Below the pieces are notes generated by a model. That model was not told the origin of the DNA. It saw only the letters and a list, made by a program, of their open reading frames with translations, and made no database searches. From assembly GCF_021401245.1 (NCBI RefSeq), contig NZ_JACBFY010000006.1:62001-126000 (forward strand): a DNA stretch of 64,000 nucleotides, written 5' to 3'. The position numbers were made by a program, and so were the translations under genes. Of this stretch, positions 6,052 to 27,441 are shown piece by piece; within the stretch, counting starts at the first letter, position 1, and each line of letters starts with the position of its first letter. This DNA comes from Pseudacidovorax sp. NFM-22 (GTDB taxonomy: Bacteria > Pseudomonadota > Gammaproteobacteria > Burkholderiales > Burkholderiaceae_C).

Positions 6052-7790
6052 CGCGCGTTTCCTTGCGCACCACCGCGGCCCGCCTGGCGCCGGCCGCGCT
6101 GCTCCTGCTGGCCGGCCTGGCCCATGCCGCAGGCGGCGACGTCGGCCAGGTGGCCAAGCAGCCCACCAACTGGATCGCCATCGGCATGTTCATGGTGTTT
6201 GTCGCGGGCACGCTCTACATCACCAAGTGGGCGGCCAAGCGCACGCGCTCGGCGGCCGACTTCTACACCGCGGGCGGCGGCATCACCGGCTTCCAGAACG
6301 GGCTGGCCATCGCGGGCGACTACATGTCGGCCGCCTCCTTCCTGGGCATCTCGGCGGCCGTGATGGCCACGGGCTACGACGGGCTCATCTATTCCATCGG
6401 CTTCCTGGTGGGCTGGCCGGTGCTCACCTTCCTGATGGCCGAGCGGCTGCGCAACCTGGGCAAGTTCACCTTCGCCGACGTGGCCGGCTACCGCTTCCGG
6501 CCCGGCCCCATCCGCGCCTTCGCGGCCAGCGGCACGCTGGTGGTGGTGGCCTTCTACCTGATCGCGCAGATGGTGGGCGCGGGCCAGCTCATCAAGCTGC
6601 TGTTCGGCCTTGACTACTGGGTGGCGGTGGTGATCGTGGGCGCGCTGATGATGGTCTACGTGCTCTTCGGCGGCATGACGGCCACCACCTGGGTGCAGAT
6701 CATCAAGGCCGTGATGCTGCTGGCCGGCGTGACCTTCATGGCGGTGATGGTGCTGGCGGCCTTCCACTTCAGCCCCGAGGCGCTGTTCGCCAAGTCGGTG
6801 GAGGTGCGCACGCAGATCGCCGCCAACGCCGGCAAGTCGCCCGACGAGGCGCGCAGCATCGGCCTGGCCATCATGGGCCCGGGCGGCTTCGTCAAGGACC
6901 CGATCTCGGCCATCAGCTTCGGCATGGCGCTGATGTTCGGCACCGCCGGGCTGCCGCACATCCTGATGCGCTTCTTCACCGTGCCCGACGCCAAGGAGGC
7001 GCGCAAGTCGGTGGGCTGGGCCACGGTGTGGATCGGCTACTTCTACCTGCTGATCTTCATCATCGGCTTCGGCGCCATCACGCTGGTGCTGACCAACCCC
7101 GAGTTCGCCAACGTGGCCACGGGCGTGATCCACGGCGGCGCCGGCGCGACCAACATGGCGGCCGTGCTGGTGGCCAAGGCGGTGGGCGGCAACGTGTTCT
7201 TCGGTTTCATCTCGGCGGTGGCCTTCGCGACCATCCTGGCCGTGGTGGCGGGCCTGACGCTGTCGGGCGCCTCGGCGGTGTCGCACGACCTCTATGCCAC
7301 GCTGATCAAGCAGGGCCGTGCCGAGCCGCGCGACGAGCTGCGCGTCTCGCGCATCACCACCGTGGCGCTGGGCGTGATCGCGGTGCTGCTGGGCATTGCC
7401 TTCGAGAAGCAGAACATCGCCTTCATGGTGTCGCTGGCCTTCGCCATCGCGGCCTCGGCCAACTTCCCGGTGTTGTTCATGAGCGTGCTGTGGAAGGACT
7501 GCACCACGCGCGGCGCGGTGATCGGCGGCACGCTGGGCCTGGCCGCCTCGGTGGGGCTGACCATCGTCTCGCCCTCGGTGTGGGAGGCGACGCTGGGCTA
7601 TCCCAAGGGCTCGGCGCTGTTCCCCTACACCTCGCCGGCCCTGTTCTCCATGGCCATCGGCTTCGCGGGCATCTGGCTGTTCAGCCTGCTCGACCGCAGC
7701 CGCCAGGCCGCCGCCGAACGCGCGGCCTTCCCGGCGCAGCAGGTGCGGTCGGAGACCGGGCTCGGCGCGTCGGGCGCCTCCGGGCACTGA
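6048..7790 (+). CDS. actP: Cation/acetate symporter ActP
   Basis: A 580-aa member of the sodium:solute symporter family that takes up acetate and related short acids (glycolate, propionate) with a cation. The first 25 residues are a cleavable-looking signal segment ending [11 protein letters not shown], as in E. coli ActP, followed by about 13 hydrophobic helices. Family stretches include the [20 protein letters not shown] core after the first helix and the [14 protein letters not shown] loop. It is translationally coupled to the DUF485 gene. With the kinase/regulator pair upstream and acs divergent, the locus couples sensing, uptake and activation of acetate. Confidence 0.93.
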
Positions 7791-7913
7791 GCGCAGCATC
7801 TCGCGGGTGGGGCGGCATCCTTCGCTCCGCGCCTTTCCCGGGGGTGCGGCCCGCGCCAGGGGTGCGCCGGCAAGGACAGCTGGCGGCAAGGCGCAGCGGG
7901 GCATGATCGGGCC

Positions 7914-9464
7914 ATGCCGTCTTCCGTCCGACTCCTGTCGCAGCTCTCCCGCCGTCGCCTGCTGCAAGGCGCGGCGGGCGCGGCGCTCGCCGCTCCCTTC
8001 CTCCGCTTGCATGCCCAGGGCGGCGACAGCCGGCCGCTCTTCACGCTGGGCGTGGCCTCCGGCTGCCCCACGGCCGAGGGCGTGGTGCTGTGGACCCGCC
8101 TTGCCCCCGATCCGCTGGCGGGCGGCGGCATGGGCGAGGCGCCGGTGCCGGTGGACTGGGAACTGGCCGAGGACGAAGGCTTCGCCCGCATCGTCGCCCG
8201 CGGACGGGCCATCGCGATGGCCGACCTGGCGCACTCGGTGCACGTCGAGGTCGCAGGCCTGGCGCCCGGCCGCGACTACTGGTACCGCTTCACGGCGCAG
8301 GGCATGCGCAGCCCCGTCGGCCGCACCCGCACCGCGCGGGCGCTGCAGGACGCGCAGCCGCTGCGGCTCGCCTTCGGCTCCTGCCAGCAGTACGAGCAGG
8401 GCTTCTACAGCGCCTACCGCGACATGGCCGCGCAGGACCTGGATGCGGTGGTGCACCTGGGCGACTACATCTACGAGTCCTCCTGGGGCCGCCACCATGT
8501 GCGCCGCCACGAGGCCGGCCTGCCGCAGGACCTGGCCGGCTACCGCAACCGCTACGCGCTCTACAAGGGCGACGCCGACCTGCAGGCGGCGCATGCGGCC
8601 TTCCCCTGGTTCGTCACCTGGGACGACCACGAGGTGCAGAACGACTATGCCAACGACCGCTCGCCGCAGACGCCCGATCCCGCGCAGTTCATGGCCCTGC
8701 GCGCGGCCGCCTACCAGGCCTGGTACGAGCACATGCCGGTGCCGGCCTGGATGCGTCCGCAGGGCGCGCAGGCCCGCATCCACGGCCGCTGGCAGATGGG
8801 CGGCATGGCCGAGCTCTTCGTGCTCGACGGCCGCCAGTACCGCTCGGCCCATCCCTGCGTGCCGGTGACCGGCAACAAGGGCTTCGTCGACTGCGACGAG
8901 CGCACCGCCGCCAGCCGAAGCTATCTGGGCGCAGAGCAGGAGGCCTGGCTCTACCAGGGCCTGGCGCGCGCCCAGGGCCGCTGGACGCTGATCGCGCAGC
9001 AGACGCTGATGGCGACGGCCCCGCGCAGCCGTGGCGAGGAGCGCGGCTACTGGGTCGACGGCTGGGACGGCTACGCCGCCAACCGCGAGCGCCTGTACGG
9101 CGCGCTGGCGGCGCGGCCCGAGCGCAACGCGCTGGTGCTCAGTGGCGACGTGCACTGCTTCTGGGCCGCCGACCTGCAGCGCGCCGGCGACGCGGCGCCA
9201 CTGGCCACCGAATTCGTGGGCGGCTCCATCAGCTCGCAGGGTCCGTCGATAGCCACGGTGGCGGCGCTGCAGGCCAGCAACCCGCAGCTGCGCTGGGGCC
9301 GTGGCGACGTGCGCGGCTATGCGCTGGCCACGCTGGCGCCAGCCGAGGCGCGCGTGGAGTTCCGCGCGGTGGACGACATCCGGCGCGCCGATTCCAGCGT
9401 GAGCCGGCTGGCGCGCTTCGTGGTCGAGCACGGTTCGCCGGGCGTGCACACGGTGGCGGGCTGA
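7914..9464 (+). CDS. phoD: PhoD-type alkaline phosphatase/phosphodiesterase, Tat-exported
   Basis: A 516-aa metallophosphoesterase of the PhoD family, exported to the periplasm and releasing phosphate from phosphomono- or diesters. A twin-arginine signal is at residues 11-18 (LSRRRLLQ), followed by a hydrophobic run and an AQG cleavage region near residue 37. The N-terminal PhoD domain (LGVASGCPTAEGVVLWTRL) is followed by the catalytic domain, with FGSCQQYEQGFYSAYRDMA, HLGDYIYE, TWDDHEVQNDYAN and LSGDVHCFWAADL as metal-site segments. Nothing nearby belongs to a phosphate operon, and no Pho box is obvious in the 123-bp gap upstream. Start chosen as the ATG directly before the Tat motif. Confidence 0.9.
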   Translation: MPSSVRLLSQLSRRRLLQGAAGAALAAPFLRLHAQGGDSRPLFTLGVASGCPTAEGVVLWTRLAPDPLAGGGMGEAPVPVDWELAEDEGFARIVARGRAIAMADLAHSVHVEVAGLAPGRDYWYRFTAQGMRSPVGRTRTARALQDAQPLRLAFGSCQQYEQGFYSAYRDMAAQDLDAVVHLGDYIYESSWGRHHVRRHEAGLPQDLAGYRNRYALYKGDADLQAAHAAFPWFVTWDDHEVQNDYANDRSPQTPDPAQFMALRAAAYQAWYEHMPVPAWMRPQGAQARIHGRWQMGGMAELFVLDGRQYRSAHPCVPVTGNKGFVDCDERTAASRSYLGAEQEAWLYQGLARAQGRWTLIAQQTLMATAPRSRGEERGYWVDGWDGYAANRERLYGALAARPERNALVLSGDVHCFWAADLQRAGDAAPLATEFVGGSISSQGPSIATVAALQASNPQLRWGRGDVRGYALATLAPAEARVEFRAVDDIRRADSSVSRLARFVVEHGSPGVHTVAG

Positions 9465-9749
9465 TGCCGCGCGGGTCTGCCGTCCCTGGAGTGGCGGACG
9501 ACGCGCGGTGCCTGCCGGCATTGGGCGCCGTTCGGCCCCGGACGGCGCTCCGTGGCCCCTCGCAACCGCTGCACGGGAAGACCCCGCCTGCCGACCCGGA
9601 TTCGCCCCTCTGTCGCCGCCATGCCCGCCGACGCTGTTAGGGTCGGCGATTTCCGGGTTTTCCCTCATCCTTGGCCGACCACCGGTTCCGCTTGCCGATT
9701 GGCAATGCCGGCCGGCGTCCTGCGCCCTGTTCTGTCCCGCGCCTTGCCC

Positions 9750-10958
9750 ATGACTTCCGCCGCTTACCTCGCCGACGCCCAATCCGAACGCACGCTATTG
9801 CGGGCCGTGCTCGCCCTGGGCCTGGGCGGTTTCTCCATCGGCACGGGCGAGTTCGTCATCATGGGCCTGCTGCCCGAGGTGGCGCGCGACATCGGCACCA
9901 GCATTCCGCAGGCCGGTCATGCGATCAGCGCCTATGCGCTGGGCGTGGTGGTGGGTGCGCCGGTGCTGGCGGCGCTGGCCGCGGGCTGGCGCCGCCGTGT
10001 GCTGCTGATGGCGCTCATGGCCTTCTATGCCATCGGCAACATCGCCAGCGCCCTCGCGCCGGATTACCTGTCGCTGCTGGGCCTGCGGCTGTTGACCGGC
10101 CTGCCGCACGGCACTTATTTCGGCGTCGCGGCGCTGGTGGCGGCGGCCCTGGCACCGCCCGGGCAGCGGGCGCGCGCGGTCGGTCTGGTGATGCTGGGCC
10201 TGACCGGCGCCACGCTGGTGGGCGTGCCCATCGCGGCCTGGCTGGGCCAGCATTTCGGCTGGCGCGCGGCCTTCGTCTTCGTCGGGCTCATCGCCGCCGC
10301 GGCGGTGCTGATGATCCGCCTGTGGGTGCCCGACATGGCGGCGGCGCAGGGGGCCAGCCCCATGCGCGAACTGGGCGCGCTGCGCCGGCGCCAGGTGTGG
10401 TTCACCCTGGGTATCGCGGCCATCGGCTTCGGCGGCATGTTCTGCGTGTTCAGCTACGTCAAGCCCACGCTGACCGAGGTGGCCGGCCTGTCGGTGGGCC
10501 GTGTGCCGCTGGTGCTGGCGCTGTTCGGTGTCGGCATGGTGGCGGGCAACCTGGTCGGCGCGCGCCTAGCCGACCGGGCGCTGATGCCGACCATCGGCGG
10601 CATCCTGGCCTATGCGGCGGTCGTGCTGGCGGCCTTCTCGGTCACGGCCCACCACCCGGTCGCGGCGTCGATCAACATCCTGCTGGTCGGCACGCTGGTG
10701 GCCATCGGCCCGGCGCTGCAGATCCGGCTGATGGACGTGGCCGGCGACGCCCAGACCCTGGCCGCGGCCCTGAACCATTCGGCCTTCAACATGGCCAACG
10801 CCTTGGGCGCGTGGCTCGGCGGCGTGGCCATCGACGCGGGTCTTGGATGGACCTCGACGGGCTGGGTGGGCGCGCTGCTGGCGCTGGCCGGGCTGGCGCT
10901 GTTCGCGGCGGCCCTGGCAGATGGGCGTCGCACGTCGCGGGGGGCGCGGCTGGCGTGA
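9750..10958 (+). CDS. MFS transporter, AraJ/YdhP-type (DHA1)
   Basis: A 402-aa major-facilitator protein with 12 predicted helices. The first-helix signature GTGEFVIMGLLPEVARDIG and the following SAYALGVVVGAP are typical of the AraJ/YdhP/PbuE branch, which exports sugars, purines or drugs. An earlier in-frame start exists, but residues before MTSAAYLADAQSERTLLRA do not look like transporter sequence, so ATG 9750 was chosen. No regulator lies next to it and the substrate cannot be inferred. The 285-bp gap before it, after phoD, holds nothing recognised. Downstream it opens onto the repeat island. Confidence 0.85.
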   Translation: MTSAAYLADAQSERTLLRAVLALGLGGFSIGTGEFVIMGLLPEVARDIGTSIPQAGHAISAYALGVVVGAPVLAALAAGWRRRVLLMALMAFYAIGNIASALAPDYLSLLGLRLLTGLPHGTYFGVAALVAAALAPPGQRARAVGLVMLGLTGATLVGVPIAAWLGQHFGWRAAFVFVGLIAAAAVLMIRLWVPDMAAAQGASPMRELGALRRRQVWFTLGIAAIGFGGMFCVFSYVKPTLTEVAGLSVGRVPLVLALFGVGMVAGNLVGARLADRALMPTIGGILAYAAVVLAAFSVTAHHPVAASINILLVGTLVAIGPALQIRLMDVAGDAQTLAAALNHSAFNMANALGAWLGGVAIDAGLGWTSTGWVGALLALAGLALFAAALADGRRTSRGARLA

Positions 10959-16293: not shown

Positions 16294-17256
16294 TCAGGCC
16301 GCGGCGGCGATGCCGTAGGTGCGGCGGTACATCTCCACCAGGTGCTCGCCAGCGGTGCAGGGCGCGAAGCGCGGCGCCTCGCCCGCGGGCACGGTGCCGG
16401 GCACCGCCTCGATGCGGGCCAGGTAGTCGGGTTCGTAGAAGAAGGGGATGGAATAGCGCGGCGCGCCGCCCGAATGCAGGTTGCGCACGCGGTGCGGGTT
16501 GGAGTGGTACAGACCGTTGGTCCAGCGCGGGATCATGTCGCCCAGGTTGACCACGAAGCACCCGTCGACGGGCGTGGCGGGCAGCCAGTCGCCGCCGGGC
16601 ATCTGCACCTCCAGGCCGCCATGGCCGTCCTGCGCCAGGATGGTGATGGCGCCCCAGTCGGTGTGGGCCCCGGCGCCGAAGGTGCGCTCGTCCGCGCCTT
16701 CGGGATGGGCGGGGTAGCGGATCATGCGCAGCGTGACCATGGGGCTGTCGCTGGTGGCGTCGAACCAGGTCTCGGGGAGCTGCAGCGACAGGGCCATCAG
16801 CTGCATCAACCGGCGCGACAGGGCCAGCATGGCCTGGATGTAGGCCTCGCACCGGGCGGGCGCCTCGGGCACCTCGGCCGGCCACTGGTTGTGGCCGTAG
16901 GTCTGGTAGCCGGCCAGCACATAGGGATGGTCGGCCGGGTAGGCCATGCCGCAGTAGAAGCTTTCCTTCAGGTCGGGCCGCGCCGCCGCATCCAGCGTCT
17001 GCGCGCCCATCAGCTCGTAGCCGCGCATCGCGGGCGACTTGTGCATCTCCAGCGCTTCGCGCGTGGCCATGGGCACGTCGAGCAGCCGGCGGGCCAGCTC
17101 GAACTGGGCCTGCACCTGTTCGGCCGGCACGCCGTGGTGGCGCACGTAGAAGAAGCCCGAGGCCATGGCGGCGGCGCGCATCTGCGCGGCCACCTCGGCG
17201 CTGCGCGGCCCGCCCAGGGCGAGCGCGCCGTCCAGGTCGATGACGGGGATGGTCAT
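16294..17256 (-). CDS. Isopenicillin-N-synthase-family Fe(II)/2-oxoglutarate oxygenase
   Basis: A 320-aa mononuclear non-heme iron oxygenase. The iron triad is His198 and Asp200 in AGAHTDWGA plus His255 in NPHRVRN; Arg267 and Ser269 in RYSIPFF would bind the 2-oxoglutarate carboxylate. The N-terminal DIOX_N part contains MAASGFFYVRHHGV-like family sequence. Such enzymes hydroxylate or oxidise small molecules. It lies 17 bp downstream of an ABC receptor gene on the same strand, so the receptor may deliver its substrate. A second family member is divergent at 18834; the two are only distantly alike. ATG 17256 follows ACGAGG. Confidence 0.87.
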   Translation of the reverse strand: MTIPVIDLDGALALGGPRSAEVAAQMRAAAMASGFFYVRHHGVPAEQVQAQFELARRLLDVPMATREALEMHKSPAMRGYELMGAQTLDAAARPDLKESFYCGMAYPADHPYVLAGYQTYGHNQWPAEVPEAPARCEAYIQAMLALSRRLMQLMALSLQLPETWFDATSDSPMVTLRMIRYPAHPEGADERTFGAGAHTDWGAITILAQDGHGGLEVQMPGGDWLPATPVDGCFVVNLGDMIPRWTNGLYHSNPHRVRNLHSGGAPRYSIPFFYEPDYLARIEAVPGTVPAGEAPRFAPCTAGEHLVEMYRRTYGIAAAA

Positions 17257-17273
17257 GACGGCCTCGTACGCGC

Positions 17274-18302
17274 TCAGGCCTTGAGCTTGCGGTCGGCGGC
17301 CGCGGGCAGGAAGCGGTCGGTCCAGATGTCGGCCACGGTGGGCGAGCCCTTCAGGCCGAAGGCGGCGACGGTCTCGTCGATGGTGGCCTGCAGGCGCTCG
17401 GGCGTCGCGGCGCCCCAGCCGTGGGCCATCGTACCGGGCGTCCTCATGCTGCCGTCGACGATCAGCTGCAGCCGCTCGTGCTCGATGGCCTCGTTGGCCA
17501 GCGGCTCGCGGGCCTTGATGGCGGCGGCGCCGGCCTTGGTGTCGGCCATGGCCTCGATCCAGCCGCGCGTGGTGGCCTTGACGAAGGCCTTCATGGCCTC
17601 GGCGTTCTCCATGCTCTTCGCGTTGGCGACCAGGCCGTTGCCGTACGACTTCATGCCGTAGTCGGAGAAGCGGAACGCCGTGATCTGCTCCGGCCCCATG
17701 CCGCGCAGCTTGAGGTTGAGCAGGCCGGTGAAGTAGAAGTAGCCCGCGCCATCGAAGTCGCCCTTGACGAAGCGGGTGTCGCCGATGTCGGGTGCCACGT
17801 TCTCCCACTTCACGCTGGCCGGATCGAAGCCCTGGGCCTTGGCGAAGACGGGGAACAGCTTGCGCGAGGCGTTGAAGGGCTGGCCCAGCAGCGTCTTGCC
17901 CGCCAGGTCGGTGGGCTTCTTGATGGGGCCGTCCTTGCGCACGAGGATGGCGTTGGGGTTCAGGTCGTACTGGATGGCCACGGCCTTGAGGCCGGCCGTG
18001 GGGTTGTTGACGTCGAACTCGACCATGGTCGCCAGGTCGGCCGAGGCGCAGTCGTAGGCGCCGCTGCCCACCAGGCTGATGGCGGCGGCCGAGCCGTTGC
18101 CGGTGTCGATGGCGACGTCCAGTCCGGCGTCCTTGTAGTAGCCGCGCTGCTGCGCCAGCAGGAAGCCGGCGGCCGTGGCCTCGACCTTCCAGCCCAGGTT
18201 GAACTTGAACTTCTGCAGGGAACCCTGGGCCCGCACGAAGGGCGTGGCGGCAAGCAGGGTGGCGGCGCCCGAGGCGGCCAGGAGGGAGCGGCGGTGCAGC
18301 AT
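17274..18302 (-). CDS. ABC transporter substrate-binding protein, NMT1/SsuA-like, orphan
   Basis: A 342-aa periplasmic receptor. Signal peptide MLHRRSLLAASGAATLLAAT with cleavage near FVRAQG (about 26). The mature part begins FKFNLGWKVEATAAGF, typical of the NMT1/THI5 and SsuA/TauA receptors for pyrimidine precursors, sulfonates or similar. It is clearly paralogous to the receptor at 35971 (shared pattern SGAYD..ADLA.MEF..NNP), but has no permease or ATPase beside it. It is followed by the oxygenase at 16294, suggesting uptake then oxidation of one compound. The start is the ATG before the signal peptide. Confidence 0.87.
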   Translation of the reverse strand: MLHRRSLLAASGAATLLAATPFVRAQGSLQKFKFNLGWKVEATAAGFLLAQQRGYYKDAGLDVAIDTGNGSAAAISLVGSGAYDCASADLATMVEFDVNNPTAGLKAVAIQYDLNPNAILVRKDGPIKKPTDLAGKTLLGQPFNASRKLFPVFAKAQGFDPASVKWENVAPDIGDTRFVKGDFDGAGYFYFTGLLNLKLRGMGPEQITAFRFSDYGMKSYGNGLVANAKSMENAEAMKAFVKATTRGWIEAMADTKAGAAAIKAREPLANEAIEHERLQLIVDGSMRTPGTMAHGWGAATPERLQATIDETVAAFGLKGSPTVADIWTDRFLPAAADRKLKA

Positions 18303-18398
18303 GGTGCGGTCTTCGAAAGGATGCGTTGGAAAGCCTCGCGGGCCATGGGCCAGACGCGGGGATGCCAGAGCAATTTCCGGGCGGCTCCGGGTGGGGCC

Positions 18399-18415
18399 GC
18401 TGAACGCTTCTACTC
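18399..18415 (-). promoter_or_regulatory. 17-bp motif upstream of the receptor gene
   Basis: Read on the minus strand this is GAGTAGAAGCGTTCAGC, about 97 bp upstream of the receptor ATG. An exact copy reading toward the divergent oxygenase is at 18643-18659. Each gene thus has the motif in the same orientation relative to itself, as expected for a shared operator or promoter element. Confidence 0.55.
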
Positions 18416-18642
18416 CTGCAAGGGTTTCAGCACGATCCATGCCGCGCGCGTCGCAATGCCTGCGCGCCCGCGCCGGCTGGGCTTGACTCATTAGCGCTCG
18501 CGTGTGGTGCAGGTATGGCAACGCGCGCACCGCCCTGGTTGGTCGCGCCCCGGCTTGGCGCAAGAGACCCTTGGTCGATCTCGGAAAGCGCACAAAACGC
18601 TTGCCGCGCCCCGGGGTGCGCCGCCCATAATCGCGGCCCAAA

Positions 18643-18659
18643 GAGTAGAAGCGTTCAGC
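18643..18659 (+). promoter_or_regulatory. 17-bp motif upstream of the divergent oxygenase
   Basis: GAGTAGAAGCGTTCAGC, identical to the minus-strand copy at 18399-18415. A -10-like CATAAT at 18626-18631 lies just before it, so the motif may overlap the transcription start. The rest of the 531-bp gap between receptor and oxygenase (18303-18833) holds nothing else I recognise. Confidence 0.55.
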
Positions 18660-18833
18660 AACGCCCGCCTGCCGCACCGGCAGGTGTCAGCGGCCCGGGA
18701 ATTGCTCTTGACGTCCTGCCCACGTGCACCGTGGCGCGGCGCGATCAGGATGCAACAGCAGCCCGAAGCCCGCCCTCCATGGTCTCCGACGGACGGACAT
18801 CTTTCCTTCCACCCACTCACGGAGAGCCCCACC

Positions 18834-19838
18834 ATGACCGCCATCGCCACCACCGCCCCCGACTTCGCCCTTGCCGAGCTTGAAAAGGAATCGCGCATGG
18901 GCGCGATGGGCTCCGAGACCAACACCCGCGAAGTCCGCCGCATCAGCCTGGCCGACTTCGACGCCCGCCGCGCCGAGATCGCCGACCAGCTGTGGGACGC
19001 CGCCGTCGACGTCGGCTTCTTCCAGCTGGTGGACCACGGCATCGACTTGGCCGACATCCGCGCCGCCTTTGCCGAAGCCGAACGCTTCTTCGCGCTGCCC
19101 GATGCGGTGAAGGCCCAGTACCCGCTGGCCAACAACGCCGGCTGGGAAAGCAAGGCCCAGGTGCGGCCGTCGACCGGCACCGCCGACCAGAAGGAGAGCT
19201 ACCAGATCACGCTGCCGCTGATGGGCCCGCTCTTTCCGACCGAGGCGGAGCTGCCCGGCTTCAAGGCCGCCATGCTGGCCTTCGAGCAGAAGAGCTGGGA
19301 GATCGGCATGAAGGTGCTGTCCTGCTTCGCGCTCAAGCTGGGCTTCGACACCGAGTTCTTCACGCGCGCCCACGACAAGTCCAGCGCCGAGTACCAGAGC
19401 ACGCTGCGCCTGCTGCACTACTACGCCATCCCGCCCGAGGCGCAGGCGAACCTGGACCTCTGGCGCGCCGGTGCGCATACCGACTTCGACTGCCTGACGA
19501 TCCTGTATCAGCGCCAGGGCCAGGGTGGGCTGCAGGTGTGCCCGGGCAAGGAATTCGAGAAGCAGGAGTGGACTTCCATCCCACCCGATGAGGACGTCAT
19601 CACCTGCAACATCGGCGACATGCTCATGCGCTGGAGCGACGACCAGCTGCCCAGCAACTTCCACCGCGTGCGCAACCCGCTGCCGGGCGAGTACATGGGC
19701 CCGCGCTACAGCATCGCCTTCTTCTGCCAGGCCAACCGCGACGCGCTGATCGAATCGCCCTCTGGCAAGTACCCGTCCATCACGGCGGGCGACTATCTCA
19801 AGCAGCGGATTGCGGCGAACTTCGGCAAGAAGTACTGA
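18834..19838 (+). CDS. Isopenicillin-N-synthase-family Fe(II)/2-oxoglutarate oxygenase
   Basis: A 334-aa oxygenase. Iron ligands are His215 and Asp217 (RAGAHTDFDC) and His277 (NFHRVRN); Arg291 and Ser293 (RYSIAFF) fit 2-oxoglutarate binding. The N-terminal half contains AAVDVGFFQLVDHGID, the family fold entry. ATG 18834 follows GGAGAGCCCC; upstream in-frame sequence has no family match. It is divergent from the orphan receptor/oxygenase pair and shares an upstream 17-bp motif with it, so the three genes may serve one pathway. Substrate unknown. Confidence 0.87.
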   Translation: MTAIATTAPDFALAELEKESRMGAMGSETNTREVRRISLADFDARRAEIADQLWDAAVDVGFFQLVDHGIDLADIRAAFAEAERFFALPDAVKAQYPLANNAGWESKAQVRPSTGTADQKESYQITLPLMGPLFPTEAELPGFKAAMLAFEQKSWEIGMKVLSCFALKLGFDTEFFTRAHDKSSAEYQSTLRLLHYYAIPPEAQANLDLWRAGAHTDFDCLTILYQRQGQGGLQVCPGKEFEKQEWTSIPPDEDVITCNIGDMLMRWSDDQLPSNFHRVRNPLPGEYMGPRYSIAFFCQANRDALIESPSGKYPSITAGDYLKQRIAANFGKKY

Positions 19839-20049: not shown

Positions 20050-20739
20050 TCAGGCCAGCACGTAGTCCGGGTACTGCCGGCAGATTTCGTCCACCGCGCT
20101 GAGCGTGCCCGACAGGTGCGTGCGCAGCGCCTGCTGTGCGGCGGCCGGGTCGCCGGCCTCGATGGCGCGCACGATGGCGCGGTGGTCGCGCAGGATCGAC
20201 TCGGTCTTGCCCGCCGTGGGCAGGTGCAGCCGCCGCAGCCGGTCCACATGGCCCGAGGCCTTGTTGACCAGCGTCCACAGGTCGGGCACCTCGGCCGCCT
20301 CGTACATCAGGCGGTGGAAGTCGCGGTCGGCGTCCACGAAGTCGCCGTAGCGCTGGGCCTTGGCCAGGGCCGACTGCTGCGTCAGCGTGGCCTTCAGCCG
20401 CGCCAGAAGATCGGGCGGCGCGCTCGTCGCCAGCTGGTGCACCAGCTCCAGCTCCAGCGAGCGGCGAAGGAAGTGCGCCTGCCGCGCGGCCGCGATGTCG
20501 ATGCGGCTGACCAGCGTGGCGTGCTGCGGAAACACGTCCACCAGCCCTTCCTCGGCCAGGCGCAGCAGGGCCTCGCGCACCGGCGTCTGGCTCACGCCGA
20601 AATGGTCGGCCAGCTCCTGGCGCGCGAGCACCGAGCCGGGGGGGAGGTCGAGCGCGAGGATCGCGCCGCGCAGCGTTTCGAGCACCTGCGGCGCGGCCAG
20701 GCGCGTGCGGTCGAGTCGGGTCCTGGACAGGGGAGCCAT
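20050..20739 (-). CDS. GntR-family transcriptional regulator (FCD type)
   Basis: A 229-aa regulator. A winged-helix domain occupies residues 10-75, with recognition segment ELADHFGVSQTPVREALLRL, followed by an all-helical FCD ligand domain with metal-site residues in DADRDFHRLMYEAA and DHRAIVRAIEAGD. FadR-subfamily members of this kind usually sense an organic or sugar acid and repress the adjacent catabolic operon. It is divergent from the dehydratase operon, with a perfect 16-bp palindrome between them (20766-20781), so it very likely controls that operon and itself. Confidence 0.9.
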   Translation of the reverse strand: MAPLSRTRLDRTRLAAPQVLETLRGAILALDLPPGSVLARQELADHFGVSQTPVREALLRLAEEGLVDVFPQHATLVSRIDIAAARQAHFLRRSLELELVHQLATSAPPDLLARLKATLTQQSALAKAQRYGDFVDADRDFHRLMYEAAEVPDLWTLVNKASGHVDRLRRLHLPTAGKTESILRDHRAIVRAIEAGDPAAAQQALRTHLSGTLSAVDEICRQYPDYVLA

Positions 20740-20759: not shown

Positions 20760-20788
20760 TTGACGCACTAATATATTAGTGTTTCAAT
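20760..20788 (+). promoter_or_regulatory. Promoter of the sugar-acid operon with GntR operator in its spacer
   Basis: A -35 TTGACG (20760-20765) and a -10-like TTCAAT (20783-20788) are 17 bp apart. The spacer is filled by the perfect palindrome CACTAATATATTAGTG (20766-20781). A protein bound there would block RNA polymerase. The divergent GntR gene is the obvious candidate. Only four of six -10 positions match consensus. Confidence 0.65.
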
Positions 20789-20842: not shown

Positions 20843-22573
20843 ATGACCCGCCGCACCCCCGAGAGCCTGCGCAGCGCGCGCTGGTTCGCCCCTGACGACT
20901 TCCGCTCCTTCGGCCACCGCTCGCGCGTGCTGCAGATGGGCTATGGCTACGAGGACTGGATGGGCAAGCCCGTCATCGCCATCGTCAACACCTGGAGCGA
21001 TGCCAACCAGTGCCACAGCCACTTCAAGCAGCGGGTGGAGGACGTCAAGCGCGGCATCCTGCAGGCCGGCGGCTGGCCGCTGGAGCTGCCGGCCATCTCG
21101 CTGTCGGAGAGCATGGTCAAGCCCACCTCCATGCTCTACCGCAACTTCCTGGCCATGGAGACCGAGGAGCTGCTGCGCAGCCATCCGGTGGACGGCGCCG
21201 TGCTCATGGGCGGTTGCGACAAGACCACGCCCGGCCTGGTGATGGGCGCCACCAGCATGGGCCTGCCCTTCATCTACCTGCCGGCCGGCCCCATGCTGCG
21301 CGGCAACTGGAAGGGCCGCGTGCTGGGCTCCGGCTCCGACGCCTTCAAGTACTGGGACGAGCGCCGCGCCGGCCGCCTGGACGAGACCGCCTGGCGCGAG
21401 ATGGAGGCCGGCATCGCCCGCAGCCACGGCACCTGCATGACCATGGGCACGGCCGCCACCATGATGGGCATCGCCGAGGCCGTGGGCCTGACGCTGCCGG
21501 GCGCGAGCAGCATTCCGGCCGCCGATGCCAACCACATCCGCATGAGCGCCGACTGCGGCCGCCGCATCGTCGAGATGGTGTGGGACGACCTCACGCCCGC
21601 GCGCCTGCTCAGCCGCGCCAGCTTCGAGAACGGCATCGCCTGTGCCATGGCCATGGGCTGCTCGACCAACGCCATCATCCATCTGATCGCCATGTCGCGC
21701 CGCGCCGGCCACCCGGTGAGCCTGGAGGACTTCGACGCCGCCAGCCGCCGCGTGCCGGTGATCGCCAACATCCGGCCCAGCGGCGATGCCTACCTGATGG
21801 AGGACTTCTATTACGCCGGAGGCCTGCGCGCCCTCTTGGAGGCGATCCGCGGCCACCTGCAGACCGAGGCGCTCACCGTCAACGGCCGCACGCTGGGCGA
21901 GAACATCGCCGGTGCCGAGGTGCACCACGCGGACGTGATCCGGCCGCTGGACAACCCCATCTATGCCGAGGGCGCGCTGGCCGTGCTGCGCGGCAACCTG
22001 GCGCCCGATGGCGTGGTCATCAAGCCCAGCGCCTGCGCGCCGCACCTGCTGCAGCACACCGGCCGCGCGCTGGTGTTCGACGACTATCCCTCGCTCAAGA
22101 AGGCGGTGGAAGACCCGGCGCTGGACGTCACCGGCGAGGACATCCTGGTGCTGCGCAACGCCGGCCCGCGCGGCGCCGGCATGCCCGAATGGGGCATGCT
22201 GCCCATCCCCACCAAGCTGCTGCGCCAGGGCGTGAGCGACATGCTGCGGCTGTCGGATGCGCGCATGAGCGGCACCAGCTACGGCGGCTGCCTGCTGCAC
22301 TGTTCGCCTGAGGCGGCGGTCGGCGGCCCGCTGGCACTGGTGCAGACCGGCGACCGCATCAGCGTGGACGTGCCTGCGCGCCGCATCCACCTGCATGTGG
22401 ACGACGAGGAACTCGCCCGCCGCCGCGCCGCCTGGGCCCCGCCGCCGGCGCGCTACGAGCGCGGCTATGGCTGGATGTTCGGCCGCCACATCAAGCAGGC
22501 CCACGAGGGCTGCGACTTCGACTTCCTCGAGACCAGCTTCGGCCGGCCCGTGCCGGAGCCGGACATCTTCTGA
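20843..22573 (+). CDS. IlvD/EDD-family sugar-acid dehydratase, L-arabinonate dehydratase-like
   Basis: A 576-aa Fe-S dehydratase that removes water from an aldonic acid to give a 2-keto-3-deoxy acid. Cluster cysteines fall at 57 (DANQCHSH), 125 (GGCDKTTPG) and 198 (SHGTCMTMG), the spacing of the [2Fe-2S] L-arabinonate dehydratase branch, and the late MSGTSYGG supplies the catalytic serine region. Sequence and length fit L-arabinonate dehydratase better than IlvD or Edd, but related pentonates, fuconate or xylonate are possible substrates. First gene of the GntR-controlled operon; GGAG lies 14 bp before the ATG. Confidence 0.85.
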   Translation: MTRRTPESLRSARWFAPDDFRSFGHRSRVLQMGYGYEDWMGKPVIAIVNTWSDANQCHSHFKQRVEDVKRGILQAGGWPLELPAISLSESMVKPTSMLYRNFLAMETEELLRSHPVDGAVLMGGCDKTTPGLVMGATSMGLPFIYLPAGPMLRGNWKGRVLGSGSDAFKYWDERRAGRLDETAWREMEAGIARSHGTCMTMGTAATMMGIAEAVGLTLPGASSIPAADANHIRMSADCGRRIVEMVWDDLTPARLLSRASFENGIACAMAMGCSTNAIIHLIAMSRRAGHPVSLEDFDAASRRVPVIANIRPSGDAYLMEDFYYAGGLRALLEAIRGHLQTEALTVNGRTLGENIAGAEVHHADVIRPLDNPIYAEGALAVLRGNLAPDGVVIKPSACAPHLLQHTGRALVFDDYPSLKKAVEDPALDVTGEDILVLRNAGPRGAGMPEWGMLPIPTKLLRQGVSDMLRLSDARMSGTSYGGCLLHCSPEAAVGGPLALVQTGDRISVDVPARRIHLHVDDEELARRRAAWAPPPARYERGYGWMFGRHIKQAHEGCDFDFLETSFGRPVPEPDIF

Positions 22574-22647
22574 CGCCAACTGGGCGCGGATTGCAGCGCG
22601 CCCGTGCCTCCCGCACCGACTTCCTCTTCTTCCGACAGGAGCCCTCC

Positions 22648-23358
22648 GTGAAATACCAGACCCGCGCGCTGCTGATGAAGGTCAGCACCGCCACGCTGTG
22701 CACCGCGCTGTTCAAGCGCGGCCTGCGCCACCAGATGATCCAGGACGTGCGTCCGCTCAACCCCGGCCTGCCCAACATGGTGGGCGAGGCCTTCACGCTG
22801 CGCTACATGCCGGCGCGCGAGGACCGCAACCGCATCGACGTCTTCCTCGACCGCAACCATCCGCAGCGCCAGGCCGTGGAGCAGTGCCCGCCCGGCGCCG
22901 TGCTGGTGATCGACAGCCGCAAGGACGCGCGCGCCGCCTCGGCCGGCGGCATCCTGGTCGCGCGGCTGATGAAGCGCGGCGTCGCCGGCGTGGTCACCGA
23001 CGGCGGCTTTCGCGACAGCCCCGACATCGCGCGCTACGACATGCCGGCCTACCACCTGCGGCCCAGTGCCCCGACCAACCTGACGCTGCACGAGGCCATC
23101 GAGATCAACGGCCCCATCGGCTGCGGCGATGCCCCGGTGTTCCCGGGCGACGTGGTGGTGGGCGATGCCGAGGGTGTGGTTGTCATCCCGGCCCACCTGG
23201 CCGACGAGATCGCGGCCGAGGCCACCGAGATGACGGCCTTCGAGGATTTCGTGCAGGAGAAGGTGATGGAAGGCCGCTCCATCCTCGGCCTGTACCCGCC
23301 CACGGACGAGCAGAGCCGCAGCGACTTCGCCGCCTGGCGCGCCGAGCGCGGCCGCTGA
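22648..23358 (+). CDS. RraA-fold protein, probable class II aldolase
   Basis: A 236-aa protein of the RraA/HMG-aldolase fold. The GTG start is set by AGGAG at 22637-22641, 6 nt upstream; an earlier in-frame ATG has no ribosome site. The metal/substrate motif GGFRDSPD gives Arg122 and Asp123, conserved in 4-hydroxy-4-methyl-2-oxoglutarate and related pyruvate aldolases. Length exceeds RraA of E. coli (161 aa). In this operon, directly after a dehydratase, it may cleave the 2-keto-3-deoxy acid to pyruvate and an aldehyde; an RNase E regulator role is unlikely here. That assignment is inference from context. Confidence 0.75.
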   Translation: MKYQTRALLMKVSTATLCTALFKRGLRHQMIQDVRPLNPGLPNMVGEAFTLRYMPAREDRNRIDVFLDRNHPQRQAVEQCPPGAVLVIDSRKDARAASAGGILVARLMKRGVAGVVTDGGFRDSPDIARYDMPAYHLRPSAPTNLTLHEAIEINGPIGCGDAPVFPGDVVVGDAEGVVVIPAHLADEIAAEATEMTAFEDFVQEKVMEGRSILGLYPPTDEQSRSDFAAWRAERGR

Positions 23359-23402
23359 GCCCCGCAGGCCCGCACCCATCGAACAACAACGGAGACGACA
23401 CC

Positions 23403-24383
23403 ATGACCATCAACCGCCGCCAGGCCCTGCAGGCCGGCATCGCCCTAACTTTGCCCAGCCTGGCCTTTGCCCAGGGCGAATGGCCCACCGCCAAGCCCAT
23501 CACCTACGTGGTGCCCTTCACGCCGGGCGGCTCCACCGACATTGTCGGCCGCACCCTGGCACAGAAGCTGGGCGAGAGCCTCAAGCAGTCCGTGGTGGTG
23601 GACAACCGCCCCGGCCAGGCCGGCGGCATCGGCGCCGCCTACGTGGCCAAGGCCGCGCCCGATGGCTATACCCTCTTCGGCGGCACCATCAGCACGCATG
23701 CCATCAATGCCAGCCTGTACCGCAAGCTGCCCTACGACCCGGTGAAGGATTTCGAGCCGGTCTGCCTCACGGCCCGCCTGCCCAACGTGCTGATCGTGAA
23801 CACGCAGCTGGGCGTCAACTCGGTGGCCGAGCTGGTGGCACTGCTCAAGAAGGATCCGTCCAAGCGCAACTTCGCCTCGTCGGGCGCGGGCACTTCCACG
23901 CACCTGGCGGGCGAGATGTTCGCGGACGCCATCGGCGTCAAGTTGACCCACGTGCCCTACAAGGGCACGCCGCCGGCCATGACCGACGTGGCCGCGGGCC
24001 TGGTGCCCTTCATGTTCGACCAGGTGACGGCGGCCCTACCGCTGGTGCAGAGCGGCAAGCTCAAGCTGCTGGCCGTGACCACCGCCAAGCGCATCGCGCT
24101 GCAGCCCCAACTGCCCACCATGATCGAGGCCGGCCTGCCCGGCTTCGAGATGTCGTCCTGGCAGGCCGTGTATGCGCCCAAGGGCACGCCCAAGCCCATC
24201 GTGCAGCGCCTCAATGCCGAGATCGTGAAGGCCCTGCGCCAGCCCGACGTCAAGGACAAGCTCGAAGGCCAGCTGGCCATGGAGATCGTGGCGAGCTCGC
24301 CCGAGGAGCTGCGCGACTTCATGGCGCAGGAGATCCCGCGCTGGGCCGAGCTGGTGAAGAAGTCCGGCGCGACCGCCGACTGA
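23403..24383 (+). CDS. Bug-family periplasmic receptor (1 of 3)
   Basis: A 326-aa tripartite-tricarboxylate (TctC/Bug) receptor. Signal peptide MTINRRQALQAGIALTLPSL with cleavage near AFAQG. Family motifs: PITYVVPFTPGGSTDIVGR, VVVDNRPGQAGGIGA and YKGTPPAMTDVAAG; the second-domain loop contains PKGTPKPIVQRLN. It binds a carboxylate, sugar acid or similar for a TctAB-type permease, but no membrane subunit is encoded nearby. The ATG at 23403 follows GGAGACGAC and is 44 bp after the aldolase stop. Confidence 0.9.
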   Translation: MTINRRQALQAGIALTLPSLAFAQGEWPTAKPITYVVPFTPGGSTDIVGRTLAQKLGESLKQSVVVDNRPGQAGGIGAAYVAKAAPDGYTLFGGTISTHAINASLYRKLPYDPVKDFEPVCLTARLPNVLIVNTQLGVNSVAELVALLKKDPSKRNFASSGAGTSTHLAGEMFADAIGVKLTHVPYKGTPPAMTDVAAGLVPFMFDQVTAALPLVQSGKLKLLAVTTAKRIALQPQLPTMIEAGLPGFEMSSWQAVYAPKGTPKPIVQRLNAEIVKALRQPDVKDKLEGQLAMEIVASSPEELRDFMAQEIPRWAELVKKSGATAD

Positions 24384-24396
24384 AAGGGCGCGCGCC

Positions 24397-25368
24397 ATGC
24401 AACGCAGACACCTGCTCGGCGCCCTGGGCGCCAGCGCCGCCGCCTGGGCCCTGCCGGCCGCGGCGCAGACGGCCTTTCCCAGCCGCTCGCTGACCATCGT
24501 GGTGCCCGCCTCGCCGGGCGGTGCCATCGATCTGGCCGCCCGCCTGATCGGCCAGAAGCTCTCCGAGGCCTGGGGCCAGCCGGTGGTGGTGGACAACCGC
24601 GCCGGGGCCACCGGCATCATCGGCACCGACTTCGTGGCCAAGAGCCCGCCCGACGGCCACACGCTGGCGCTGGTGGCCAGCAGCCATGCCATCAACCCGA
24701 GCATGGTGCGCAAGCTGCCCTTCGACACGCTGCGCAGTTTCGAGCCCGTGGTGCTGACCCATGTGGTGCCGCTGGTGCTGGTGGTGGCGCCCAGCCTGCC
24801 GGTGCGCAGCGTGCAGGAGCTGGTCGCCTATGCCAAGGCGCGGCCGGGCCAACTGGCCTTCGCCTCCAGCGGCTCGGGCGGCGCGCCGCACTTCTCGGGC
24901 GAGCTGTTCAAGAGCATGGCGGGGCTGGACCTCACGCACATTCCCTACAAGGGCAGCACGCTGGCCCATCCGGACCTGATGAGCGGCCGCGTGGCGCTGA
25001 TGTTCGACACGCTGGCGGCGGTCAATGCCCAGGTCAAGGCCGGCAAGCTGCGCGCCCTGGCCGTGACCACGCCGCGGCGCGTGGCCATGCTGCCCGACGT
25101 GCCCACCATGGCCGAGGCGGGCCTGCCCGGCTACGAGACCAGCACCTGGGGCGGCCTGCTCGCGCCGGCCGGCACGCCGGCGGCGGCCATCGGCCGGCTG
25201 AACACCGAGGTCGACCGCATCCTGGCGCTGCCCGAGGTGCGCCAGCATTTCCAGAACGCCGGCATGGAGCCCGGCGGCGGCACGCCGCAGCAGTTCGGCG
25301 CCTTCATCGCCAGCGAGATGGCCAAGTGGGCGCAGGTGGCCCGCCAGGCCGGCATCCAGCCCGAATGA
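24397..25368 (+). CDS. Bug-family periplasmic receptor (2 of 3)
   Basis: A 323-aa receptor starting 13 bp after the previous one. Signal peptide MQRRHLLGALGASAAAWALP with cleavage near AAAQT. Typical segments: LTIVVPASPGGAIDLAARLI, PVVVDNRAGATGIIGTD, HIPYKGSTLAHPDL, and LLAPAGTPAAAIGRLN. The substrate-contact loop ASPGGAID differs from the TPGGSTD of the first receptor, suggesting a different or broadened ligand. No TctA/TctB genes accompany it. Confidence 0.9.
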   Translation: MQRRHLLGALGASAAAWALPAAAQTAFPSRSLTIVVPASPGGAIDLAARLIGQKLSEAWGQPVVVDNRAGATGIIGTDFVAKSPPDGHTLALVASSHAINPSMVRKLPFDTLRSFEPVVLTHVVPLVLVVAPSLPVRSVQELVAYAKARPGQLAFASSGSGGAPHFSGELFKSMAGLDLTHIPYKGSTLAHPDLMSGRVALMFDTLAAVNAQVKAGKLRALAVTTPRRVAMLPDVPTMAEAGLPGYETSTWGGLLAPAGTPAAAIGRLNTEVDRILALPEVRQHFQNAGMEPGGGTPQQFGAFIASEMAKWAQVARQAGIQPE

Positions 25369-25432
25369 GCGGCCGTGCGCCCTTGACGAACGCAGCCCGG
25401 CGACGGTCGCCCGGGCGCACTTTGCGAGAACC

Positions 25433-26392
25433 ATGACCCTCGACACCCGACCCCGCATCCTCCAGAACGGCCCGCTGCTCCCGCAGCTCGAACAGGCGCT
25501 GGCCGCCACCTACCGGCTCACGCTGCTGCAGGCCCAGCCCGACCCGGCGGCCTTCCTGGCAGCGGAGGGCGCGCAGTTCGACGGTATCGCCTGCACGGCG
25601 CGCATCGGTGCGCCGCGGGCGCTGATCGATGGGCTGCCCTCGCTGCGCGTCATCTCCAACTTCGGCGTGGGCTTCGAGACCATCGACGTCGAGCGGGCCC
25701 GCGAGCGCGGCATCGCAGTGGGCTACACGCCCGACGTGCTCAACGACTGCGTGGCCGACACGGCCTTCGGCCTGGTGATGGACGTGGCGCGCCGCTTCAG
25801 CGCGGCCGACCGCTTCACCCGCCGGGGCGACTGGCTGCGCGGGCAGTTTCCGCTCAGCCACCGCGTCAGCGGCAAGCGCCTGGGCATCGTGGGCCTGGGC
25901 CGCATCGGCCGTGTCATCGCCCGGCGTGCCAGCGGCTTCGACATGGACGTGCGCTACCACAACCGCCGGACGGTGGACGACGTGCCCTACGGTTACGAGC
26001 CCACGCTGGAGGGTCTGGCGCGTTGGGCGGACTTCCTGGTCGTGGCCAGTGCCGGCGGGCCCGCCACGCGCGGATTGATCTCGGCCGCGGTGCTCGATGC
26101 GCTGGGGCCGCAGGGCTTCCTCGTCAATGTGTCGCGCGGCACCGTGGTCGACCAGGCGGCGCTGGTTCAGGCCCTGCAGCAGGGCCGCATCGCCGGCGCC
26201 GGGCTCGACGTCTTCGAGCAGGAGCCCCAGGTGCCCGAGGCCCTGTTCGCCATGGACAACGTGGTGCTGCTGCCCCACGTGGCCAGCAATACGCACGAGA
26301 CCCGCCAGGCCATGGCCGACCTCGTGATGGACAACCTGGCCAGCTACTTCGCCACCGGCCGCGTCCGCGTGCCGGTGCCGGGCTCGGCCTGA
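25433..26392 (+). CDS. D-isomer-specific 2-hydroxyacid dehydrogenase
   Basis: A 319-aa NAD(P)-dependent reductase of the glyoxylate/hydroxypyruvate reductase (GhrB-like) group. The nucleotide motif GIVGLGRIG is at 151-159. Substrate and catalytic residues are visible as Arg in VSRGTVVD, Glu in EQEPQVPE and His in LLPHVAS. N-terminal substrate loop ISNFGVGFETID is standard. It reduces a 2-oxo acid such as glyoxylate or hydroxypyruvate, or oxidises a 2-hydroxy acid that enters the pathway. Its position inside the dehydratase/aldolase operon suggests it handles a C2-C3 product. Confidence 0.85.
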   Translation: MTLDTRPRILQNGPLLPQLEQALAATYRLTLLQAQPDPAAFLAAEGAQFDGIACTARIGAPRALIDGLPSLRVISNFGVGFETIDVERARERGIAVGYTPDVLNDCVADTAFGLVMDVARRFSAADRFTRRGDWLRGQFPLSHRVSGKRLGIVGLGRIGRVIARRASGFDMDVRYHNRRTVDDVPYGYEPTLEGLARWADFLVVASAGGPATRGLISAAVLDALGPQGFLVNVSRGTVVDQAALVQALQQGRIAGAGLDVFEQEPQVPEALFAMDNVVLLPHVASNTHETRQAMADLVMDNLASYFATGRVRVPVPGSA

Positions 26393-26439
26393 CTCAAGCA
26401 GCCTTCGACGAATCCACAGACCAACGAGGAGCAGATCCC

Positions 26440-27441
26440 ATGGAGACAAGACCTTTCCTTCGGCGCCGCGGCGCCCTGCTGGCGGCCACGGCCACGGCCA
26501 CGGCCCTGGCCGTCCTGGCGCCATGGGGCGCGCTGGCGCAGCCGGCCTGGCCGGTGCGGCCGGTCACGCTGATCGTGCCTTTTTCGCCCGGCGGCGGCAC
26601 CGACATCGCGGCGCGCCTGCTGGCCACGCGGCTCAGTGCCAAGCTGGGCCAGTCGGTGGTGGTGGAGAACCGCGCCGGTGCCGGCGGCCTGGTGGGCGCC
26701 GACCTGGTCGCCAAGGCCAAGCCCGACGGCTACACGCTCTTCTTCGGCAACGTGGGCACGCAGTCCATCAACCCCTGGCTCTACAAGATGCCCTACGACC
26801 CGGACAAGGCCTTCGCACCGGTGTCGCTGTTCGCCGAGCTGCCCTTCGCCTTCGTCATCAACACCGCGCTGCCGGCGCGCACGCCCAAGGAGCTGGTGGC
26901 ACTGGCCAAGGCCGCGCCGGGCAAGTACACCTTCGCCAGCTCGGGCAACGGCGGATCGCCGCACCTCACGGGCGAGATCTTCCAGCAGGCCACGGGCATC
27001 GAGCTGCGGCATGTGCCCTACAAGGGCGGCGGGCCGGCCATGGCGGACCTGATCGCCGGCCATGTGGACATGCTCTTCGCCTCGGTGCTGGAGACCTCGG
27101 GCTACGTCAAGGCCGGCAAGCTGCGCGCGCTGGCCGTGACCAGCGCCCAGCGCTCGCCCGCCATGCCCGACGTGCCGACGCTTGCCGAACTGGGCGTGCC
27201 GAATGCCGAGTCCGGCTCGTGGACGGCCGTGATGGCGCCGGCCGGCACGCCGCCGGCCATCGTCGAGCGGCTCTCCACGGCCGTGCAGGAGGTGGCCCGC
27301 ATGCCCGAGGTGAAGGAGGCGCTGATCGCGCAGGGCGCCACGCCGCGCGGCAGCACCGCGGCCGAGCTGCAGCAGGTGATCGATGCCGACAAGGCCCGCT
27401 ACGGCCAGGTGATCAAGACGCGGGGCGTGCGCATCGACTGA
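26440..27441 (+). CDS. Bug-family periplasmic receptor (3 of 3)
   Basis: A 333-aa receptor with a long Ala/Thr-rich signal peptide (RRRGALLAATATATALAVLA) that contains a short in-frame GGCCAC repeat; cleavage is expected near ALAQP. Core motifs: VTLIVPFSPGGGTDIAARLL, VVVENRAGAGGLVGAD, HVPYKGGGPAMADLIAG. ATG 26440 follows CGAGGAGCAG. Last gene of the rightward operon and convergent with the NlpC/P60 lipoprotein, with 43 bp between the stops and no clear terminator. Confidence 0.9.
   Translation: METRPFLRRRGALLAATATATALAVLAPWGALAQPAWPVRPVTLIVPFSPGGGTDIAARLLATRLSAKLGQSVVVENRAGAGGLVGADLVAKAKPDGYTLFFGNVGTQSINPWLYKMPYDPDKAFAPVSLFAELPFAFVINTALPARTPKELVALAKAAPGKYTFASSGNGGSPHLTGEIFQQATGIELRHVPYKGGGPAMADLIAGHVDMLFASVLETSGYVKAGKLRALAVTSAQRSPAMPDVPTLAELGVPNAESGSWTAVMAPAGTPPAIVERLSTAVQEVARMPEVKEALIAQGATPRGSTAAELQQVIDADKARYGQVIKTRGVRID

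Follow-up and report, generated by a model that had tools for sequence, protein, structure and literature searches.

A GntR-linked sugar-acid operon of Pseudacidovorax sp. NFM-22 with a candidate RraA-family second dehydratase

RraA-fold enzymes and sugar-acid catabolism

Judging by a partial sequence comparison, the protein of published activity that comes nearest to the one discussed here is FlDet of Flavobacterium sp. UMI-01, a member of the RraA family of 237 amino acids (aa) that acts as a dehydratase/decarboxylase and converts 2-keto-3-deoxy-D-glucarate (KDGR) to alpha-ketoglutarate semialdehyde (alpha-KGSA); the recombinant protein alone suffices for the conversion, and its gene adjoins, in opposite direction, that of an assayed alpha-KGSA dehydrogenase (PMC8563752). 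FlDet is inactive on 4-hydroxy-2-oxoglutarate, 2-keto-3-deoxygluconate (KDG), 2-keto-3-deoxy-6-phosphogluconate (KDPG) and 4-deoxy-L-erythro-5-hexoseulose uronate (DEHU) (PMC8563752). The 4-hydroxy-4-methyl-2-oxoglutarate/4-carboxy-4-hydroxy-2-oxoadipate (HMG/CHA) aldolase also has the RraA fold; two RraA metal motifs exist, and homologues carrying metal-site motifs are likely class II pyruvate aldolases (PMC5065237). In the Weimberg (Route II) pathway for pentonates, a sugar-acid dehydratase acts first and an alpha-KGSA dehydrogenase last, and the known 2-keto-3-deoxypentonate (KDP) dehydratases have the dihydrodipicolinate synthase (DHDPS) or fumarylacetoacetate hydrolase (FAH) fold (PMC6336799).

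Here we describe a locus of Pseudacidovorax sp. NFM-22 (assembly GCF_021401245.1, contig NZ_JACBFY010000006.1, positions 62,001 to 126,000 of the forward strand; this whole stretch of 64,000 nucleotides is called the window) in which the gene of an IlvD/EDD dehydratase (P0001) is followed by that of an RraA-family protein (P0002). From sequence comparisons we propose, with a probability of roughly 0.6, a GntR-linked sugar-acid operon in which P0002 is the alpha-KGSA-forming second dehydratase of a Weimberg-type (Route II) pathway. P0002 is probably the "missing" second dehydratase because of its probable relation to FlDet, the relatives linked to aldehyde dehydrogenase (ALDH) genes, the ALDHs encoded in its own genome, and a parallel IlvD-DHDPS gene pair there.

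In the proposed pathway, Bug proteins would serve sugar-acid uptake and the IlvD enzyme would dehydrate the sugar acid to a 2-keto-3-deoxy acid. Using a divalent metal bound at its Arg-Asp, the RraA protein would stabilise the C2 enolate and eliminate the C4 hydroxyl to give alpha-KGSA; a C6 aldaric substrate would also lose CO2 at this step. An alpha-KGSA dehydrogenase supplied in trans (C16 or C15, see below) would then form 2-oxoglutarate. The RraA-fold protein would replace the DHDPS- or FAH-fold second dehydratase of the Weimberg pathway, and the hydroxyacid dehydrogenase of the operon would have a side role, perhaps bringing a 2-keto sugar acid into the pathway by reduction.

The operon and its conserved dehydratase-RraA pair

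The features of the locus are as follows.

20050..20739, minus strand: GntR/FCD-family regulator gene, divergent (PF00392, 57.7 bits; PF07729, 91.8 bits)
20766..20781, no strand: palindrome CACTAATATATTAGTG, candidate GntR operator, between the regulator and dehydratase genes
20843..22573, plus strand: IlvD/EDD sugar-acid dehydratase, AraD-like (P0001; PF00920/PF24877, NF009559)
22648..23358, plus strand: RraA-family protein (P0002), 236 aa, GTG start (PF03737, NF006093)
23403..24383, plus strand: TctC/Bug solute-binding protein 1 (PF03401, 231 bits)
24397..25368, plus strand: TctC/Bug solute-binding protein 2 (PF03401, 248 bits)
25433..26392, plus strand: D-2-hydroxyacid dehydrogenase, 2-keto acid reductase type (PF02826, 175 bits)
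26440..27441, plus strand: TctC/Bug solute-binding protein 3 (PF03401, 268 bits)

The open reading frames bear out the genes, gene order and coordinates of the initial annotation, to which the three TctC/Bug genes, the divergent GntR gene and the palindrome are additions. A scan for promoters and terminators gave no signal exceeding that of shuffled controls.

Conservation of the neighbourhood was followed in two samples. The first (genome_contigs) holds the best 80 of at least 560 loci of RraA relatives, from which gene clusters were built. The second is an evenly drawn set of 397 Pseudomonadota genomes searched for RraA matches at E<=1e-70, with 44 positive genomes (own genome included); every non-own match gave one of 46 neighbourhoods, in which partner genes were counted within 6.5 kb. 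Among the matches listed, the closest RraA relative (98% identity) is from Pseudacidovorax. The IlvD cluster is present in 65 of the best 80 loci and an AraD-like IlvD in 34 of the 46 evenly drawn neighbourhoods, so that a sugar-acid operon built on an IlvD-type dehydratase and a metal-site RraA protein, as first annotated, is widely kept; the GntR cluster follows with 46/80 and 22/46. An enzyme of the enolase superfamily (mandelate racemase/muconate lactonizing enzyme, MR/MLE) occurs in seven of the 46, and in two alphaproteobacterial loci (L050, L070; locus labels are our own) an MR/MLE gene lies directly upstream of RraA, with no IlvD found in the stretch. RraA thus usually has a sugar-acid dehydratase as its partner, drawn from either the IlvD or the MR/MLE superfamily.

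The 2-hydroxyacid dehydrogenase, by comparison, is found in 7/80 and 9/46 (three of these nine below 35% identity), and near RraA in 19 of 140 members (counts out of 140 refer to RraA members of at least 60% identity). IlvD-RraA is a conserved pair and the hydroxyacid dehydrogenase is optional; these counts led us to reject the earlier view of the dehydrogenase as a core step. The enzyme itself scores 278 bits against the glyoxylate/hydroxypyruvate reductase 5j23, matches generic 2-Hacid_dh domains, and falls below the cut-off of all 21 NCBIfam models shown, including glyoxylate reductase NF009714 (232.6 bits, cut-off 455). On pSymB of S. meliloti 1021 (L085, 6147-15732), IlvD, RraA and 2-hydroxyacid dehydrogenase genes lie in one run; the palindrome occurs twice there, its second copy preceding a peptide-type ATP-binding cassette (ABC) transporter.

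P0001 passes the "L-arabinonate dehydratase" model NF009559 (1065 bits, cut-off 882). Its Cys57, Cys125 and Cys198 are the cysteines expected for a [2Fe-2S] cluster: Cys198 aligns with Cys200 of the L-arabinonate dehydratase of R. leguminosarum (RlArDHT), and we take Cys57 and Cys125 to be the equivalents of the remaining two cluster ligands. In RlArDHT, Cys200 is a cluster ligand and the C-terminal His579 lines the substrate pocket (PMC11316719). P0001 ends in Phe rather than His, which is the last residue in eight of 115 relatives, and scores 571 bits against RlArDHT (PDB 5j83). The same genome encodes a second IlvD (47% identical to P0001) at C17 (L168, C17:292000-308000; 7355-10058), which scores 849 bits against RlArDHT, has the C-terminal His, and lies beside a DHDPS-family gene whose product scores 543 bits against L-2-keto-3-deoxyarabonate dehydratase; sugar ABC genes were recognised there by eye. 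A role of the operon in L-arabinose use only was rejected on account of this C17 pair. We therefore read the L-arabinonate label on P0001 as a family name rather than a demonstrated substrate, and the operon's sugar acid is perhaps a different one. The genome, as we read it, would hold two parallel pairs, one of IlvD with a DHDPS-fold dehydratase and one of IlvD with RraA.

The reaction of the RraA-family protein

P0002 matches PF03737 (119.7 bits, threshold 24.5) and passes the RraA-like model NF006093/PRK08245 (349 bits, cut-off 208), as do six of six relatives drawn from differing contexts. It fails both HMG/CHA aldolase models (NF006731, 84/179 bits; TIGR02798, 70/304.5 bits), which an own-genome paralogue in L176 passes. 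The AlphaFold2 model of P0002 has a mean pLDDT (predicted local distance difference test) of 88; its top PDB match is 5x15, and the HMG/CHA aldolase 3noj ranks seventh. Two side observations concern the family. The 501-position "fumarylacetoacetate hydrolase family" model NF009399 (PRK12764) seems to hold an RraA half, P0002 matching positions 269-496, and PDB 5ir2 is an RraA-fold structure whose deposited title says cellulase. Relatives of P0002 are publicly annotated "ribonuclease activity regulator RraA", from which one might suppose an RNase E regulator placed in the operon by chance. This is a very improbable explanation, since P0002 reaches 43.4 bits against a cut-off of 136 with the E. 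coli-type RraA model NF006875, gene linkage connects the family with both IlvD and MR/MLE sugar-acid dehydratases, and its metal-site residues are conserved.

The relation to FlDet was assessed from the N-terminal 19 residues of that protein. Among 152 RraA-family members with identity of 50% or more, between 4 and 13 of these residues match (mean 8.7), for example 12/19 in the RraA of Noviherbaspirillum massiliense (L062). The 43 other reference proteins match at no more than five positions, and two own-genome HMG/CHA-type paralogues at two and four. FlDet probably belongs to the subfamily of P0002 (NF006093).

The metal site was read from an alignment of 168 RraA rows, which excludes sequences with a stop or of fewer than 210 aa; residue numbers are those of P0002 starting three codons before the GTG, so that R125/D126 are protein residues 122/123. 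The initial annotation had noted that the Arg-Asp of the metal site is retained, and Arg125-Asp126 proves invariant in 168/168 members. A flanking acid is present in 129/140, either at +4 (position 129; 120 members) or as Asp104 (nine members), never both. Mazurkewich (2014) reportedly sorted the RraA metal motifs into two classes, D-X20-RD and G-X20-RD-X2-D/E. The conserved residues fit metal-enolate chemistry and make no choice between aldolase and dehydratase.

Linkage to genes for alpha-KGSA-dehydrogenase-like enzymes points towards dehydration. Strict linkage was defined as the presence, within 6.5 kb of RraA, of a dehydrogenase sharing 50% or more identity with an alpha-KGSA-dehydrogenase-like reference; ALDH labels in the 140-member table and in the tree also include loose matches below 50% identity. 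Ten of the 46 evenly drawn neighbourhoods show strict linkage. In L062, from the genome_contigs set, AraD, RraA, ALDH and TctC genes form one run behind the same palindrome, followed by TctB and TctA (named by eye); its RraA is 80% identical to P0002, and its dehydrogenase is GucD-like (529 bits, below the cut-off of 770). Other arrangements include AraD-ALDH-RraA-SMP30 (lactonase-like) with no DHDPS match (L232), RraA-ALDH-TctCBA with no other dehydratases in the 8.2 kb shown (L153, Rhodobacteraceae SC52), and a series of TRAP, RraA, FadR, cupin, short-chain dehydrogenase/reductase (SDR) and ALDH genes in Sulfitobacter pontiacus (L154), which would resemble the FlDet route provided that the S. 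pontiacus cupin resembles KdgF and that the SDR there is a DEHU dehydrogenase. In a tree built from 123 RraA members (thinned from 168 to below 93% identity), ALDH linkage, loose labels included, changes 18 times, at least 14 of them forced by supported branches. An ALDH like the type II or III alpha-KGSA dehydrogenases is present in 34 of 44 RraA-positive and 68 of 353 RraA-negative genomes, an odds ratio of 14 that is inflated by related genomes. Type III enzymes resemble the Vibrio harveyi ALDH. ALDH searches of the PDB gave 467 bits for 1eyy and 846 bits for 3v4c; phmmer searches of the PDB with the own-genome C16 ALDH and the L062 ALDH gave no match at strict limits (1e-100, 1e-110).

The initial annotation also held that the later pathway enzymes are absent. 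This stands for the operon of the window, where no alpha-KGSA dehydrogenase, as a complete Route II operon would carry, is found; it does not stand for the genome, in which later-enzyme-like genes occur elsewhere by similarity, nor for some relatives, which have them beside RraA, and a reading of local absence as genome-wide absence was rejected. Two type-II-like alpha-KGSA dehydrogenases are encoded outside the operon, at C16 and C15. The C16 enzyme is 66% identical to the ALDH of N. massiliense, and its gene adjoins a glucarate-dehydratase-like gene (806 bits, just below the cut-off of 829). A DHDPS-family gene of the genome likewise has a glucarate-dehydratase-like gene as its neighbour.

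P0002 may instead be a class II pyruvate aldolase; splitting of the 2-keto-3-deoxy acid would then release pyruvate together with a C2/C3 aldehyde, and the second product would be reduced by the hydroxyacid dehydrogenase. The chemistry works better with a pentaric acid as the starting compound: it would give 4-hydroxy-2-oxoglutarate, which would be cleaved to pyruvate and glyoxylate, the latter then reduced to glycolate by the dehydrogenase. RraA-fold HMG/CHA aldolases exist (PMC5065237), and 3NOJ being one of them, the earlier suggestion that the fold is new or unusual for such chemistry was rejected. The Arg-Asp pair, the flanking acid and Asn73 of P0002 (see below) would suit an aldolase, and a 2-hydroxyacid dehydrogenase lies near the 19 members mentioned above. 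2-Hydroxyacid dehydrogenases use 2-keto acids, not glycolaldehyde, which weighs against aldolase cleavage. Turnover of the P. putida aldolase is reduced by mutating N71, G144 and T145 and, mildly, R195 (PMC5065237). In an alignment read by eye, 3NOJ Asn71 corresponds to Asn73 of P0002, a position with Asn in just 21 of 140 members, and G144, T145 and R195 are replaced by a family-conserved PTNLTxH block and a Met. Further points against cleavage are bit scores well short of the HMG/CHA aldolase cut-offs, the likeness of RraA-linked ALDHs to alpha-KGSA dehydrogenases and the inactivity of FlDet on 4-hydroxy-2-oxoglutarate (PMC8563752). No result here favours the aldolase step over dehydration, and we consider it possible yet unlikely, and less likely than alpha-KGSA-forming dehydration.

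A further explanation is that RraA performs an accessory step (decarboxylase, tautomerase or furanose ring-opening) and that a KdgD/DHDPS-family enzyme encoded elsewhere carries out the second dehydration. Such genes lie near 18 of 140 members (e.g., L149, L150, L152), with RraA and KdgD adjacent in L229, and DHDPS-family genes are present in the own genome. P0002 also aligns with the C-terminal half of NF009399, which describes a family of FAH-RraA fusions, and some KDP dehydratases have the FAH fold (PMC6336799). Against this, L062, L153, L232 and L240 combine RraA with the ALDH, and the stretch covered in each shows no alternative enzyme for the second dehydration; FlDet alone converts KDGR (PMC8563752). 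We regard an accessory role as distinctly unlikely, more so than the aldolase.

Several observations nevertheless weigh against P0002 as an alpha-KGSA-forming dehydratase. Strict ALDH linkage is lacking in 36 of the 46 evenly drawn neighbourhoods, and L062 alone shows it among the best 80 of at least 560 genome_contigs loci. Ten of the 44 RraA-positive genomes have neither ALDH type searched, and relatedness among the genomes makes such counts non-independent. The type-II-like ALDHs score 512-530 bits against a cut-off of 770 and are alpha-KGSA-dehydrogenase-like by similarity only, and the NADP+ ALDHs match no alpha-KGSA dehydrogenase model above its cut-off. NF009559 prefers P0001 (1065 bits) over the C17 IlvD (834 bits, below 882). 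KdgD or other DHDPS genes near the 18 members count here too, because they would be redundant if RraA does the same step. The flanking acid is replaced by Ser or Gly in 11/140 members, six of them ALDH-linked (L152, L153, L227, L231, L240, L246), and these ALDH-linked members may differ from P0002. P0002 itself matches just six of the 19 FlDet N-terminal residues; the probable membership of FlDet in NF006093 rests on those residues, length and gene context, not the full sequence. We know of no IlvD-linked RraA member with known activity, and a literature search of partial coverage, with subscription papers mostly outside it, found no paper on the IlvD-RraA pair. Moreover, FlDet accepted only the hexarate KDGR (PMC8563752).

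The operon type is widespread, and the public annotation of its second enzyme is likely wrong or empty. Whether the large RraA-like family (at least 560 relatives), now annotated as ribonuclease regulators, would consist of sugar-acid dehydratases is in our view evenly balanced. If so, a large and misleadingly named family could be assigned a reaction and a role in the breakdown of sugar acids, and operons seemingly without a second dehydratase would be complete.

Regulation and comparison with described systems

The palindrome CACTAATATATTAGTG is the sole site in the 6.4 Mb own genome at two or fewer mismatches. Across 163 related loci (2.7 Mb), its core CTRATNNATYAG was counted 70 times, in 60 of the loci; the counts for five permuted controls were 0, 3, 0, 4 and 5. 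Within 300 bp of a core site lie a GntR gene for 51 sites, an AraD gene for 29 and an RraA gene for five; six of the 70 have no reference gene within 300 bp and could be chance occurrences. In L037 and L050 a core site separates GntR from a glucarate-dehydratase-like gene; further core sites (L229, L235) stand ahead of RraA-KdgD and where KdgD meets a TRAP-AraD-MR/MLE run. Because palindrome sites adjoin such genes, the GntR protein is tied to sugar-acid genes, including those of aldarate type. The protein is predicted to bind the palindrome, which is likely its operator, and the site is a handle toward the operon's substrate. Elsewhere in the window (16294-19838), two 2-oxoglutarate/Fe(II) oxygenase-like frames flank an ABC-type binding protein gene, as read by eye.

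Compared with RlArDHT (5J83), P0001 is likewise an IlvD/EDD sugar-acid dehydratase with one matching cluster cysteine, but it is without the C-terminal His of the pocket and is the more distant of the two own-genome IlvD paralogues (571 against 849 bits). P0002 and the P. putida HMG/CHA aldolase (3NOJ) have in common an RraA-like fold and the Arg-Asp metal/enolate site; they differ in subfamily, in the Asp of D-X20-R-D, which is Gly in P0002 with the acid at +4 instead, and in G144, T145 and R195, which by-eye alignment finds unconserved in the family of P0002. FlDet is likewise a member of the RraA family, of similar length (237 and 236 aa), whose N-terminus resembles that of family members and whose genomic partner, an alpha-KGSA dehydrogenase gene, has a counterpart beside some relatives of P0002; its substrate comes from DEHU oxidation rather than from an IlvD dehydratase, and the comparison covers 19 N-terminal residues only. 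Like the Weimberg pathway, the proposed one would begin with a sugar-acid dehydratase and end with an alpha-KGSA dehydrogenase, but in place of the DHDPS- or FAH-fold KDP dehydratases described for that pathway (PMC6336799) an enzyme of RraA fold is proposed, with the last enzyme supplied in trans.

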